The notes beneath the pieces were generated by a model that was given only the letters and a program-made list of their open reading frames with translations, ran no database searches and had not been told where the DNA came from. The translations under genes were made by a program, and so were the position numbers. Shown here piece after piece: positions 58,239 through 62,030 of a DNA stretch of 64,000 nt (position 1 is the first letter of the stretch; each line of letters opens with the position of its first letter). Origin of the DNA: Gammaproteobacteria bacterium. GTDB lineage: Bacteria > Pseudomonadota > Gammaproteobacteria > Pseudomonadales > Halieaceae. The stretch lies in the NCBI GenBank assembly GCA_024742415.1, contig JANSYN010000007.1, forward strand, positions 62,001 to 126,000, in the 5' to 3' direction.

Positions 58239-60032
58239 CTAATTCCTGCGTATGCCCTCGCCATCAAAAACAGCCAGCGTCGCCTCGCGGCGAATGCGCA
58301 GTTGCGGGTCGAGGGTCAGCAGCCCGGTGCTGCCGCGAAACAATGCCTGCGGCCCGGTGCGCAGTCGTGCAAACTGTGATTGCACCAGCCAGGCATCGGC
58401 ACCGAGTGCGTTGAGCCTGGCATAGTTGTCGCTGTCTGTACCGCCGGAGGCGATAGCCACGCGCAACTCCGGCTGCTCGCCAAGGAACCAGGGGATTTCG
58501 ACCAGGTGCATACCCTGTAAATCACGATTGGCCTGGCCCGGCAGCCCGCTGTAGGCATTGGACAGCGTATACACCGGCACCTGTGCGGCGTAATGAAAGG
58601 CGAACAGGGGTTTCAGCGCCTTGGCCTGGGCGGGATTGCGGCTGAGCAAAAAAATGACATCCAGGTCCTGGCGTCGTCGTGGCGTGAATTCAACATTGGT
58701 GGCGAGCATGTCGCGCACCACGCGAGCACGCTCTTCACTGCGCAGCAGCCCGAGTGCGTCCTTGACGCTGCTCGAGTAGTTATCTCTCTCGGCGTAGGTC
58801 GCGCCGCTGACAACCCTGCCGCCGAGCTGTTGCCAGCGGTCGCGCAGCGCACGATCGACCTGTATGCCCCAATCGTCATCCAGCGTGAGTATCGCCGCGT
58901 TACGATGACCGCGGCCGAAAGCGCGTTCGGCCAGGGTGATCGCTTCATCTTCGGATGACAGTGACATCTGGATGACAGGTGCACCGCCGGGTGGAAGCTC
59001 GCTGTCAATGCGGTTCAAGGCAATCATGGGCACTGTGCGATCCGGTCGCATGGCCAGATCGGTCACTGCGGATTTGCTCAGTGGCCCTACAATCACCTGC
59101 GCGCCGCGGCTGATCGCGGCATCGTACGCGGCAGCGGCTGAGGCGTGCTGGTCCTGGTCGATAATGGCTAGCTGTGGCGTCACAGCACCTGCTGTGCGGG
59201 CCTGGAAGTACGCGGCCAGATAACCGTCGAGCACGGCGTGTCCGGCGGGACCCAGGCGCCCGCTCAGTGGCAGGATCAGGCCGACCCGTGTTGCCCCCGT
59301 GGCGCTTTCAGGCAAGGTGTCCAGACCGCCGGGCAGTGGCTTGTCAGCCGGGTGATTCGGGTACTGGCTGCGCCAACGGGTAATGGCAACGCCCAGGCTT
59401 GCATCATCGGGCCGCGCGTCGGCGGCCAGGTGTAACCATCCCATCCATTGGGGGTCAACCGCGCTGGCCAGTTCCTCCTCGAGTTGCGCTGCTGATGCTC
59501 TTTGCAGACTCCGCCAGGTGCGCTGCTTCCAGCCGGTGATCTCCGCGTCCGGAAGCCACTCAAGCATACCCGCAGCGAGTCGTGCGGCGGCGACATGTTC
59601 GCCGCCCAATGAAAACACGAAATGCTGGAAATTACGGATGCGATAGAGCATCCCGGGCGCGATGTCTGCGGCAGTGGCTTCGCGCAGCAGTGCCCTGGCA
59701 GTGGCTTGCTCGCCCCGCAGGTAAGCGATGCGCGCCTGCAGGTAATAGTGGTACGCGCGATCATCGGCATTCGGCAGCGGAGTTGGCACAGCGTCCAGCA
59801 GGTTTGATGCGGCCATCCAGTTAAAGTCGGCCAGTGCGCTCTCGACGCGATTGAATGCCCCACGGTACGCGCTGGGCGGCAGTGCAAGTGACACTTTTTC
59901 TTCAACAACTGCCGGCGGCTGCGGCAGCACCGGCCCTGGGTCTTCCCGTGTGACCTCACTGGCGCAACCCCACAGCAGGGCGCTCACCAATACGGCGGTC
60001 GTGATTTGCTGCAGAGGCAGTGTTCGGCGCAT
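58239..60032 (-). CDS. lpoA: penicillin-binding protein activator LpoA
   Basis: 597 residues from ATG 60032, with AAGGA just upstream; a GTG four codons earlier is the alternative. A lipoprotein signal ends in LLWGC (Cys23). The N-terminal part is TPR-like (about 45-260) and the C-terminal part is a periplasmic-binding-protein fold (about 270-597: VGLILPLSGRLGPAGHAVLDGYL, VIVGPLSKSAVTDLA, LNRIDSELPPGG). LpoA reaches from the outer membrane to stimulate PBP1A. It diverges from rsmI, the conserved arrangement. Confidence 0.95.
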   Translation of the reverse strand: MRRTLPLQQITTAVLVSALLWGCASEVTREDPGPVLPQPPAVVEEKVSLALPPSAYRGAFNRVESALADFNWMAASNLLDAVPTPLPNADDRAYHYYLQARIAYLRGEQATARALLREATAADIAPGMLYRIRNFQHFVFSLGGEHVAAARLAAGMLEWLPDAEITGWKQRTWRSLQRASAAQLEEELASAVDPQWMGWLHLAADARPDDASLGVAITRWRSQYPNHPADKPLPGGLDTLPESATGATRVGLILPLSGRLGPAGHAVLDGYLAAYFQARTAGAVTPQLAIIDQDQHASAAAAYDAAISRGAQVIVGPLSKSAVTDLAMRPDRTVPMIALNRIDSELPPGGAPVIQMSLSSEDEAITLAERAFGRGHRNAAILTLDDDWGIQVDRALRDRWQQLGGRVVSGATYAERDNYSSSVKDALGLLRSEERARVVRDMLATNVEFTPRRRQDLDVIFLLSRNPAQAKALKPLFAFHYAAQVPVYTLSNAYSGLPGQANRDLQGMHLVEIPWFLGEQPELRVAIASGGTDSDNYARLNALGADAWLVQSQFARLRTGPQALFRGSTGLLTLDPQLRIRREATLAVFDGEGIRRN

Positions 60033-60114
60033 GGTATCCTTCACCCGGTTGGTCCTGGTCTCGGCCTGAGACCAGCGTGGTTAATCCGCTAGTCTGACAT
60101 TATAAGGGGTAAAC

Positions 60115-60942
60115 GTGGAAGCAGGGCTTTATGTGGTGGCCACCCCGATGGGAAACTTTGGTGATCTGTCCAGTCGCGCCATCGAAACCTTGTCCAATGC
60201 CACGTTGATAGCCGCCGAGGATACCCGTCACAGCAAGCGCCTGTTGCACGCTTTCGAAATCGACACGCCGCTGATGGCCTATCACGATCATAGTGATGAC
60301 CGCGCACTGCTGCGTATTGCGCAATGTATAGAGACAGGCGGGGCGGTGGCACTGATCAGCGATGCAGGCACGCCGCTGATCTCTGATCCCGGCTACAGAC
60401 TCGTCAGGTATGTACAGGATCGGGGTCACAGCGTGCGCCCCGTGCCGGGTGCCTGTGCCGCGATTGCTGCGCTGAGCGTTGCCGGCCTGCCGACCGACCG
60501 CTTTATGTTCGAAGGTTTTTTACCAGCACGGCAGGCCGCGCGCAGGAAGCGACTGGAAGCCCTGCGCGAAGCGTCCCTGACCCTGGTCATCTATGAGGCT
60601 CCGCATCGCATTCAGGAAACCCTGGCGGATCTACACGACATACTGGGTCCCGCGCGTGAAGCGCTGCTGGCCCGGGAGATGACCAAGACGTTCGAAACCC
60701 TGCGTCGCGCCCCGCTGGCAGAGTTGGTAGCATTCGTCGGTGCCGACGCCCACCAGCGCAAGGGTGAGTTTGTGCTGGTCGTGGAGGGCGCGCCGCCCGT
60801 CAGCACGGAAATCGATGCACTCACGCGCGCCTGGCTGGAGCGTCTGGTCAGGGAAATGCCGGCCAAGCGCGCCGCAGCGGTGGTGGCCGATGTCACGGGA
60901 ATGCGCAAAAAGCTGTTATATGAATACCTGATCGGAAAGTAG
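60115..60942 (+). CDS. rsmI: 16S rRNA (cytidine-1402-2'-O)-methyltransferase
   Basis: 275 residues from GTG 60115, preceded by AAGGGG. RsmI methylates the ribose of C1402 in the decoding centre; RsmH, encoded just downstream, makes the N4-methyl on the same base. LYVVATPMGNFGDLSSRAIETL (about 4-25), AAEDTRHSKRLL, ALISDAGTPLISDPGYRLV (about 79-97) and YEAPHRIQETL are tetrapyrrole-methylase-fold signatures. Confidence 0.97.
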   Translation: MEAGLYVVATPMGNFGDLSSRAIETLSNATLIAAEDTRHSKRLLHAFEIDTPLMAYHDHSDDRALLRIAQCIETGGAVALISDAGTPLISDPGYRLVRYVQDRGHSVRPVPGACAAIAALSVAGLPTDRFMFEGFLPARQAARRKRLEALREASLTLVIYEAPHRIQETLADLHDILGPAREALLAREMTKTFETLRRAPLAELVAFVGADAHQRKGEFVLVVEGAPPVSTEIDALTRAWLERLVREMPAKRAAAVVADVTGMRKKLLYEYLIGK

Positions 60943-61077
60943 CAGGGTCGTCACCACCATCTGGGGTTTGTACACCGCTGGGGAGCTTGTTTCCATTACC
61001 GCTGCGCATTGCAGGCGTCGGGCCGGCTGCGGATGCGTGCTGGCCGGGGAGAATCCCGGTGCGATGGCGCTCGCCGC

Positions 61078-61106
61078 TTGTCACCGTTGCACTTGAACGG
61101 TAGTCT
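61078..61106 (+). promoter_or_regulatory. promoter of the RNase P RNA gene
   Basis: TTGTCA (61078-61083) and TAGTCT (61101-61106) are 17 bases apart. The predicted start, about 7 bases later near 61113, coincides with the first base of the P1 helix. The GC-rich discriminator TGGCGCC is of the type seen at stringently controlled stable-RNA promoters. The -10 box is weak. Confidence 0.5.
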
Positions 61107-61112
61107 TGGCGC

Positions 61113-61573
61113 CGAGTCGGTCAGGCGATCGCTTTCCAGTTACTTATCTATCCTCATCGTTCGCTGGGCGTGTGGGAACCGCAGGCGCACGCGTTGCGGT
61201 GGTGATAGCTAAGTAACTGGGGGGAGGAAAGTCCGGGCTCCACAGGGCAGGGTGCCAGGTAACACCTGGGGGGCGCGAGCCTACGGAAAGTGCAGCAGAA
61301 AGTATACCGCCTGAAAAAGGGGTCAGACCCCTTTTGAGTGAAAAGGGGTCTGACCCCTTTTTCAGGGTAAGGGTGAAAAGGTGCGGTAAGAGCGCACCGC
61401 GCGGCTGGTAACAGGCGTGGCGATGGTAAACCCCACTCGGAGCAAGACCAAATAGGAATCCGTTTGCTGTGGCCCACAGTGGATTCGGGTAGGTTGCTAC
61501 AGGCAGGTGGTGACACCTGTCGCAGATGAATGATCGTCCAAGACAGAACCCGGCTTACCGACCGACTCACCTT
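61113..61573 (+). ncRNA. rnpB: RNase P RNA (class A), with expanded P3 and P12
   Basis: The catalytic RNA that matures tRNA 5' ends. P1 pairs GAGTCGGTC (61114-61122) with GACCGACTC (61560-61568), followed by ACC. P2 pairs GGCGATC with GATCGTCC. The conserved core is present: GGAGGAAAGTCCGGGCTCC, CAGGGTGCCAGGTAA, GGGTAAGGGTGAAAAGGTGC, GGTAAGAGCGCACCG, and AGATGAATGATCGTCC with ACAGAACCCGGCTTA at the 3' side. At about 461 nt it is some 80 nt longer than the E. coli RNA (377 nt). The excess lies in P3, with an 11-bp CCAGTTACTTA/TAAGTAACTGG stem, and in P12, which is a palindromic repeat hairpin. Located between rsmI and mraZ as in Pseudomonas. Confidence 0.95.
61310..61366 (+). repeat. inverted pair of GGGGTC/GACCCC palindromes forming helix P12 of RNase P RNA
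   Basis: Two palindromes (61315-61335 and 61341-61361), each made of AAAAGGGGTC, one central base (A in the first, T in the second) and GACCCCTTTT, lie in inverted orientation. With the flanking CCTGA/TCAGG they give a perfect 26-bp stem (61310-61335 with 61341-61366) and a 5-base loop, GAGTG. The sequence sits exactly where helix P12 of class A RNase P RNA belongs. It looks like a REP-type dispersed repeat; no other copy was noticed in this window. Confidence 0.8.
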
Positions 61574-61581
61574 TTATTGCG

Positions 61582-61635
61582 ATACGGTGCACTAGTCCCT
61601 GACTCAAGCTATACGGTGCGCTAGTCCCTGGCTCA
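61582..61635 (+). repeat. two imperfect 25-bp direct repeats just after rnpB
   Basis: ATACGGTGCACTAGTCCCTG-ACTCA (61582-61606) is repeated as ATACGGTGCGCTAGTCCCTG-GCTCA (61611-61635), with two mismatches and a 29-base period. The repeats start about 10 bases after the mature 3' end of the RNase P RNA, so they lie in its precursor tail or terminator region. Confidence 0.7.
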
Positions 61636-62030
61636 CTGCAGGCCGCTGTCTCCAGGGTCGCGGCGCTTGCCGTGTTCTTGCCCCTTTCATGACCCCACCG
61701 GCGGCCGCCGCTCCTGCCTGGCGAAACAGCGCGCGTCTTACTGCTATATATTGTGGGTGCAGCGCCTGGTTATATCCACATGTAGTAGTAGCGAGGTCGG
61801 ATTGCCTGCCCGGTGTCCGGGAAAGTCCTCCAGGTTATATCTATTTCTTATATAGATTCAGAAAAACGATAAAAAAATAGCCTTTAACTTAAAGTAAAGT
61901 CTCAACAAGTGAATTTATGGGGCTGTTTTTTGTGATTTTTCCCGCCTGAAAAACCGCTCCCGGGTCGTGTTCTCCACGCGGAATCGCCCCTAATTGCCTG
62001 AAATTAAAACGATTTTCATGGTTCCTTATC
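61636..62030. other. gene-free, partly AT-rich region between rnpB and the mraZ promoter
   Basis: No gene is supported; two open frames of about 62 codons near 61670-61880 have no family resemblance. The stretch from about 61740 to 61930 is much richer in A+T than its surroundings. It contains GGTTATATC twice (in 61767-61778 and 61832-61843), a short inverted repeat ATCTAT/ATAGAT (61839-61844 and 61852-61857) and a CCCGG/CCGGG hairpin near 61810. Confidence 0.5.

Follow-up and report, generated by a model that had tools for sequence, protein, structure and literature searches.

P12 of the RNase P RNA of a Halieaceae bacterium is probably an inverted doublet of a transposase-associated, REP-like palindrome

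The window (i.e. the whole 64,000-nt stretch of DNA analysed) belongs to a 4.14 Mb genome of the Halieaceae (G000) and carries rnpB, the RNase P RNA gene. A full-length covariance-model match to Rfam RF00010 at 61113-61573 on the + strand (314.1 bits, E 5.8e-102, gathering score 100, whole model 1-367) places this gene in class A. An RsmI-type methyltransferase gene lies on one side of rnpB and mraZ on the other, and the RsmI frame was used as a marker for the family tree. The features of the locus are as follows.

60106-60942, + strand: frame for an RsmI-type 16S rRNA 2'-O-methyltransferase, the upstream neighbour (278 codons plus stop; TIGR00096, 261.5 bits, cut-off 167.9)
61113-61573, + strand: rnpB, class A RNase P RNA gene (Rfam RF00010)
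61136-61220, + strand: enlarged P3 of rnpB (arms 61136-61159 and 61197-61220, 83% complementary; outside the repeat family)
61310-61335, + strand: 5' arm of P12, 26 nt (100% complementary to 61341-61366 in a repeat search)
61315-61335, + strand: palindromic unit 1, AAAAGGGGTCAGACCCCTTTT (self-palindrome in the 5' arm; member of a family of 26 sites in its own genome)
61336-61340, + strand: linker GAGTG, 5 nt (apical loop in the one-helix form, part of the linker in the two-hairpin form)
61341-61361, + strand: palindromic unit 2, AAAAGGGGTCTGACCCCTTTT, the reverse complement of unit 1 (self-palindrome in the 3' arm)
61341-61366, + strand: 3' arm of P12, 26 nt (repeat search)

In the Rfam alignment, the window RNA has a 38-nt insertion relative to the model, located in the P12 hairpin. 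P12 of the window pairs perfectly over 26 bp around a loop of 5 nt and is built from two inverted palindromic units; the first-pass annotation had described both correctly, at the right coordinates. The fold of 61290-61390 had a minimum free energy of -56.5 kcal/mol (z -9.72), a value equalled by none of 200 shuffles. Matches to GGGGTCNGACCCC with at most one mismatch were found at two sites in the window, both in P12, as compared to a shuffle mean of 0.21 (1 of 100 shuffles reached two). Apart from P12 and P3, where 73 nt stand opposite four model positions, the class A structure is aligned over the whole model without further large gaps, in line with the earlier claim of an intact flanking core. 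P3 is longer by about 70 nt in the window RNA and short in G012, another species of the same genus. This enlargement was considered as a second repeat insertion and rejected, as blastn with 60000-62000 (40 of 51 first-look candidates scored) gave no match for it elsewhere in the genome. Just 3' of rnpB (61579-61635) lie two 28-nt direct repeats that are 89% alike.

A looser pattern of the palindrome, AAGGGNTCNGANCCCTT, was found at 26 sites in the genome of the window, two of them in rnpB, as compared to none for the reversed control. The remaining 24 sites were spread over eight of the 11 stretches fetched; Rfam detected only two tRNA genes in these stretches and neither overlapped with a site. 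Open frames of at least 200 codons held none of the 24 sites, as compared to 0.64 of random positions in the same loci. When one mismatch was allowed in GGGGTCNGACCCC, 34 genome sites were obtained versus 10 for the control, mostly GGGGTCAGAGCCC or its complement and often paired. A blastn search of 60000-62000 against the same genome (40 of 51 first-look candidates scored) gave nine matches beyond the full self match, all in the P12 stretch: one was the hairpin on itself and eight were at six other places, the best being 90% over 48 nt. The exact palindrome, AAGGGGTCNGACCCCTT, is confined to rnpB in this genome and, having no dispersed copy, was ruled out as a dispersed repeat here. The first-pass annotation had called the palindrome a dispersed type, which holds for the looser family and not for the exact sequence.

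Five successive dispersed pairs of units are 25-27 nt apart, and the two rnpB units 26 nt. Four of these five close pairs are direct and one (L052) is inverted, with a reverse-forward order, while the rnpB doublet is forward-reverse as judged by the centre base; inverted doublets, the usual unit of REPINs, were seen in rnpB and L052. As a palindrome of 20-50 nt in many and mostly intergenic copies, the family agrees with a REP in these respects, with a number of sites (26 in 4.14 Mb) that is low for one. GTAG or CGTC, on either strand and within 12 nt, accompanied 4 of the 24 sites, which by arithmetic without a control is not above chance. Because this tag is not consistent, the family is called only 'REP-like'. 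Neither target-site duplication nor movement of the repeat was seen. In two loci of the genome (L048 and L049), half units (AAAGGGGTC) are clustered about full palindromes, as if by local decay or slippage.

A single match to PF01797 (Y1, IS200-like) was present in this genome (G000:C11:119400-119735), within a 230-aa frame (L050:1371-2063) that scored 59.5 bits against a cut-off of 23. The best NCBIfam match of the protein was the REP-associated tyrosine transposase model, NF047646, at 75.5 bits, just below the cut-off of 80. Two forward units and a looser third lie upstream of the gene, downstream there are two reverse units that each differ from the pattern by one letter, and the stop codon falls within a unit. 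The sole Y1 gene is thus placed between inverted units; the first-pass annotation had suggested looking for the palindrome near transposase genes. Seven of 57 genomes contained at least eight sites, and six of these seven have a Y1 match, the exception being G024 (9 sites). The Y1 gene was bracketed by units, as is usual for REPs, in three of the six (G000, G012 and G023); bracketing was absent in G019, G022 and G031 (3 kb each, at most three mismatches). The association of repeat and transposase is real and is not general. The earlier proposal that a REP-like repeat had inserted into or replaced P12 is supported by the dispersed, Y1-flanking family.

P12 was readable in 15 of the 18 genomes of the genus; an rnpB match was absent from the assemblies of the other three (G002, G010 and G015). 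Among 19 rpoB genes compared, the nearest is 80.5% identical. The double palindrome occurs in two of the 15 readable P12s (the window genome and G012), 12 are of 10-18 nt and one (G016, rnpB locus L071) is an unrelated 61-nt helix, so that 13 of 15 lack the element. The pattern anticipated in the first-pass annotation for an ordinary helix, i.e. a palindrome without copies elsewhere and a hairpin shared by all relatives, does not apply, because there are 24 further sites and most relatives are without the hairpin. A wider set of 60 P12s (56 of the family and four of other families as an outgroup) had a median length of 18 nt, with 12 of at least 40 nt. Long P12s without this repeat included those of G016, G029 (52 nt) and G068 (78 nt), and were also observed in G021 and G048. 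Kept apart from this set were G005 and G006 (P12 read separately), the partial loci L079-L081, L083 and L084, and 16 order-level genomes (L018-L021, L025, L026, L028, L030, L031, L035, L037, L039, L060, L065, L068 and L074). Several contigs stop in or beside rnpB, some at or near P12: L079 (G018), L080 (G025), L081 (G046), L077/L078 (G005), L082/L083 (G006) and L187-L189 (G088). There is a hint here that rnpB may break in draft assemblies at such a helix.

A scan for GANCCC close to the 3' base of P12 flagged five of 140 family genomes, of which one (G090) has an ordinary 20-nt P12 and was counted as chance. A separate scan of the GTDB collection with an exact pattern yielded four loci, all of them RF00010 genes: L105 (Halieaceae bacterium Ww294), L106 (Gammaproteobacteria bacterium Zod_Metabat.15, with a long rpoB branch), L107 (a contig of G012) and L108 (Pseudohalioglobus lutimaris HF004). 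From equal contig coordinates and sequence, L105 was taken as G093 and L108 as G081. Double units are present in the rnpB of G012, G093, G081 and, in an altered form, G085, with a similar long hairpin in L106. P12s of this kind thus occur in a second species of the genus, in two further genera of the family and in a gammaproteobacterium that is apparently distant. Carrier counts are lower bounds because the family scan pattern overlooks forms such as that of G085. In genus g2 (four of five genomes readable), the double palindrome is present in G093; in each of the other three (G094, G095 and G096), a single hairpin of REP-like or decayed form is accompanied by a small second one. In genus g11 (eight genomes), the carriers are G081 and G085. 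As the family pattern, looser copies aside, was found only at rnpB in G093/G057 (2 sites) and G081/G059 (1 site), a present-day source of the repeat was not seen in these genomes.

The apparently distant locus, L106, was followed into its own genome (G058), in which the family pattern had no sites. Copies of the L106 P12 were found at three other places in this genome (19-30 nt, weak, E 0.007 or worse). One contig with such a weak copy (L205) contains an inverted pair of the GGGGTCAGACCC type, and at another locus (L143) its Y1 gene is flanked by inverted pairs of a related palindrome, of the GGGGTCAAATCCC type. L106 is treated as a likely parallel case.

The units of rnpB differ from the dispersed ones in symmetry. 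All 24 dispersed units of the window genome carry one mismatch in the six-pair core, whereas the rnpB units of this genome are perfect palindromes that differ from every dispersed unit at the symmetric position. Across genomes, nine rnpB units retain the 13-nt core and were scored, and eight of these pair at 6 of 6 positions; G012 unit 1, G081 unit 1, G094 and G095 have lost the core and were unscored. None of seven dispersed sites in G012 was symmetric, and among the matches listed the symmetric dispersed units were one of 33 in G019, one of three in G018 and the single unit of G032. Self-symmetry of a unit is required for two separate hairpins and not for one long helix, and the difference in symmetry therefore suggests that the two-hairpin form has mattered, or that the rnpB units descend from a symmetric form.

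Both forms were computed, as the first-pass annotation had foreseen an RNA able to fold as one long helix or two small hairpins. In the window, the choice lies between one 26-bp helix and two hairpins of 9-10 bp, and the calculated energies were -50.8 kcal/mol without pairs inside the units and -27.7 with them, i.e. the one-helix form is more stable by 23 kcal/mol. The corresponding calculated values (kcal/mol, without and with within-unit pairs) were -48.4 and -30.2 for G093, -29.5 and -32.8 for G012, -34.4 and -34.5 for G081, and -37.8 and -37.6 for G085, so that the two-hairpin form is as good as or better than one helix in the last three. Comparison by hand showed that, at two places in hairpin 2, an A-T pair in G081 corresponds to a C-G pair in G085, and that both genomes have an added AACC/GGTT stem below this hairpin. 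These paired changes suggest, short of proof, a constraint on pairing. They were read by hand, and no pair counts were taken from a MAFFT alignment of five P12s, because it places the 3' arm of G081 hairpin 1 wrongly.

The history of the element was examined with trees of RsmI (55 rows; G096 and G097 had no RsmI match and G008, G011 and G017 were too short) and of the rnpB core (58 rows; G017 and G088 were too short). For the AU tests, the carriers were grouped by their P12, and the trees were already known when the tests were run. A single clade of the five clear carriers (G000, G012, G093, G081 and G085) was rejected with both markers (AU P = 7e-7 for RsmI and 0.0014 for the rnpB core), as was a clade to which G094 and G095 were added (AU P = 0.001, RsmI). 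The carrier state required at least four changes on the RsmI tree and five on the rnpB-core tree, or five and seven with the decayed forms. Carriers outside a single clade mean repeated gains, one gain with several losses, or transfer. Many forks are open in both trees and in an rpoB codon tree, and the rpoB protein tree is long-branched.

In one account of this history, the doublet was inserted once, long ago, in a common ancestor of several genera of Halieaceae and was then lost many times, the rnpB units being relics of an older symmetric repeat. Being concerned with history, this account is compatible with the interpretation of P12 given below. The sequence GGGGTCTGACCCC is common to rnpB of G000, G012, G093, G081 and G096; TTTGAG separates the two hairpins in the window, G081, G085, G094, G095 and G096 (not in G012 or G093); and a part of the rnpB-core tree with 26 rows and support of 95/95 includes all five carriers. 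The contrast between symmetric rnpB units and the wholly asymmetric dispersed units of G000 and G012 also fits a relic. However, a single gain needs several losses, since the carriers do not form one clade and the least number of changes is four or five. In addition, L106 looks separate, and symmetry could be selected anew in the RNA, symmetric units being found elsewhere in low number. On balance this account falls a little short of an even chance and, with trees containing so many open forks, there is a slight leaning towards an old gain with losses inside the family plus a separate event in L106. As the rnpB units have a symmetric form shared with rnpB of other genera, the insertion need be neither recent nor derived from the dispersed copies of today.

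Two further explanations were considered. P12 could have lengthened by slow covariation in its lineage, its likeness to the dispersed palindrome being convergence on a stable hairpin. The wide variation in P12 length, with some long P12s lacking the repeat, the confinement of the exact palindrome to rnpB and the distinct symmetric position of the rnpB units all speak for such a process, whereas the match of both units to the 24-site family at fixed positions, with the same spacing of 25-27 nt, is unlikely to be chance (0 control sites), and 12 of the 15 readable P12s of the genus are of 10-18 nt; this explanation is judged improbable. The hairpin could otherwise work at the level of DNA or transcription, as a terminator-like or cruciform structure, with its place in P12 being incidental. 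The units (AAAAGGGG...CCCCTTTT) resemble short terminators and a terminator-like site was called on the - strand (61328-61309), but two such sites in 1 kb compare with a shuffle mean of 0.8 (sd 1.1), none was on the + strand, and efficient termination on that strand would truncate an essential RNA. The terminator reading is weak, and an effect at this level very improbable.

The explanation preferred here, with good confidence, is that in P12 of the window two inverted copies of a REP-like palindrome, of a kind associated with a transposase, came to lie in a helix of free length and have been kept as ribozyme structure; an origin of this P12 from the repeat is, taken separately, likewise probable. 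In the proposed sequence of events, the host Y1 (HuH) transposase, with which the repeat is associated, would spread short palindromes outside genes. A doublet would then have entered or replaced the distal part of P12, where it now lies, presumably by transposition and with tolerance by the ribozyme, the rest of the class A structure being unchanged. The rnpB units would have become or stayed perfect palindromes and would now evolve as RNA structure; in the small sample of relatives, letters change and hairpins persist (G081 and G085 differ by two paired changes), and the P12s of G094-G096 resemble decayed forms. The window doublet is predicted to form one helix or two hairpins, with the two-hairpin form as a local alternative that would be transcribed first. 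We infer both the route of entry into P12 and any function of the doublet. That the doublet is tolerated rather than needed, as a structural spacer of little specific function, is somewhat favoured. A more far-reaching proposal, in which transposase-borne palindromes land repeatedly in P12 of gammaproteobacteria, the units are reshaped to perfect self-pairing, the RNA is bistable (one long helix, or two hairpins at a three-way junction) and the state of P12 affects RNase P assembly or activity, is considered unlikely.

Short tandemly repeated repetitive (STRR) sequences occur in P12 of the RNase P RNA of heterocystous cyanobacteria, where this helix has likewise taken up genomic repeat DNA. 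STRRs are tandem heptamers, unlike the transposase-linked palindromes of the window family. A precedent is provided by the Rickettsia palindromic elements (RPEs), which Ogata et al. (2002) reported from the M1 RNA and tmRNA genes of rickettsiae (as cited in a review, PMC2229807). Dispersed palindromic repeats lie within the RNase P RNA gene in both cases, and palindromic elements inside this gene are a known kind of event from Rickettsia (PMC2229807). RPEs have lengths of 105-146 bp and occur within protein genes, in frame (PMC2229807). The repeat described here has a unit of 21 bp and a doublet of about 50 bp, and its copies lie outside long open frames (0 of 24) and beside a Y1 transposase gene, so that it does not fit the description of an RPE. 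The review holds that the effect of RPEs is possibly neutral (PMC2229807). The first-pass annotation knew of no described case, which must be qualified by the rickettsial elements and stands for REP or RAYT elements in rnpB, on which no paper was found among the matches listed, from a search with many journals outside its coverage.

REPINs, which consist of two inverted REPs and are linked to RAYTs (PMC3116915, excerpt), are resembled here by the inverted doublet of rnpB that folds as a hairpin, the extragenic copies and the repeat-flanked Y1 gene. Compared with the same excerpt, the family differs in that four of five close dispersed pairs are direct, in a spacing of 25-27 nt as opposed to 71 or 110, and in having a doublet inside a gene (PMC3116915). 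The E. coli TnpAREP needs a GTAG motif and a bulge, and another group of REPs has perfect palindromes (PMC8266576, excerpt). Palindromes tied to a Y1 protein, with one REP group imperfect and another perfect, offer a parallel (PMC8266576, excerpt), unlike the GTAG tag, which is inconsistent in the window family (GTAG or CGTC at 4 of 24 sites). QMITE1 and QMITE2 of Coxiella are mobile palindromes giving structured RNAs (PMC5896051, excerpt); these are small RNAs, whereas the window repeat sits in an essential ribozyme. As to the helix itself, P12 is described as variable and sometimes dispensable (PMC2858038, excerpt) and as among the most mobile parts of one RNase P RNA studied in solution (PMC11779636, excerpt).

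The interpretation first made from the letters of the window is supported in the main. A transposase-associated palindrome looks to have become part of an essential ribozyme, and the case suggests how a selfish DNA repeat can join an essential RNA. The bacterial family includes P12s that are empty, freshly filled, changed in pairs or decayed, which makes the gain of helices in structured RNAs testable within it.
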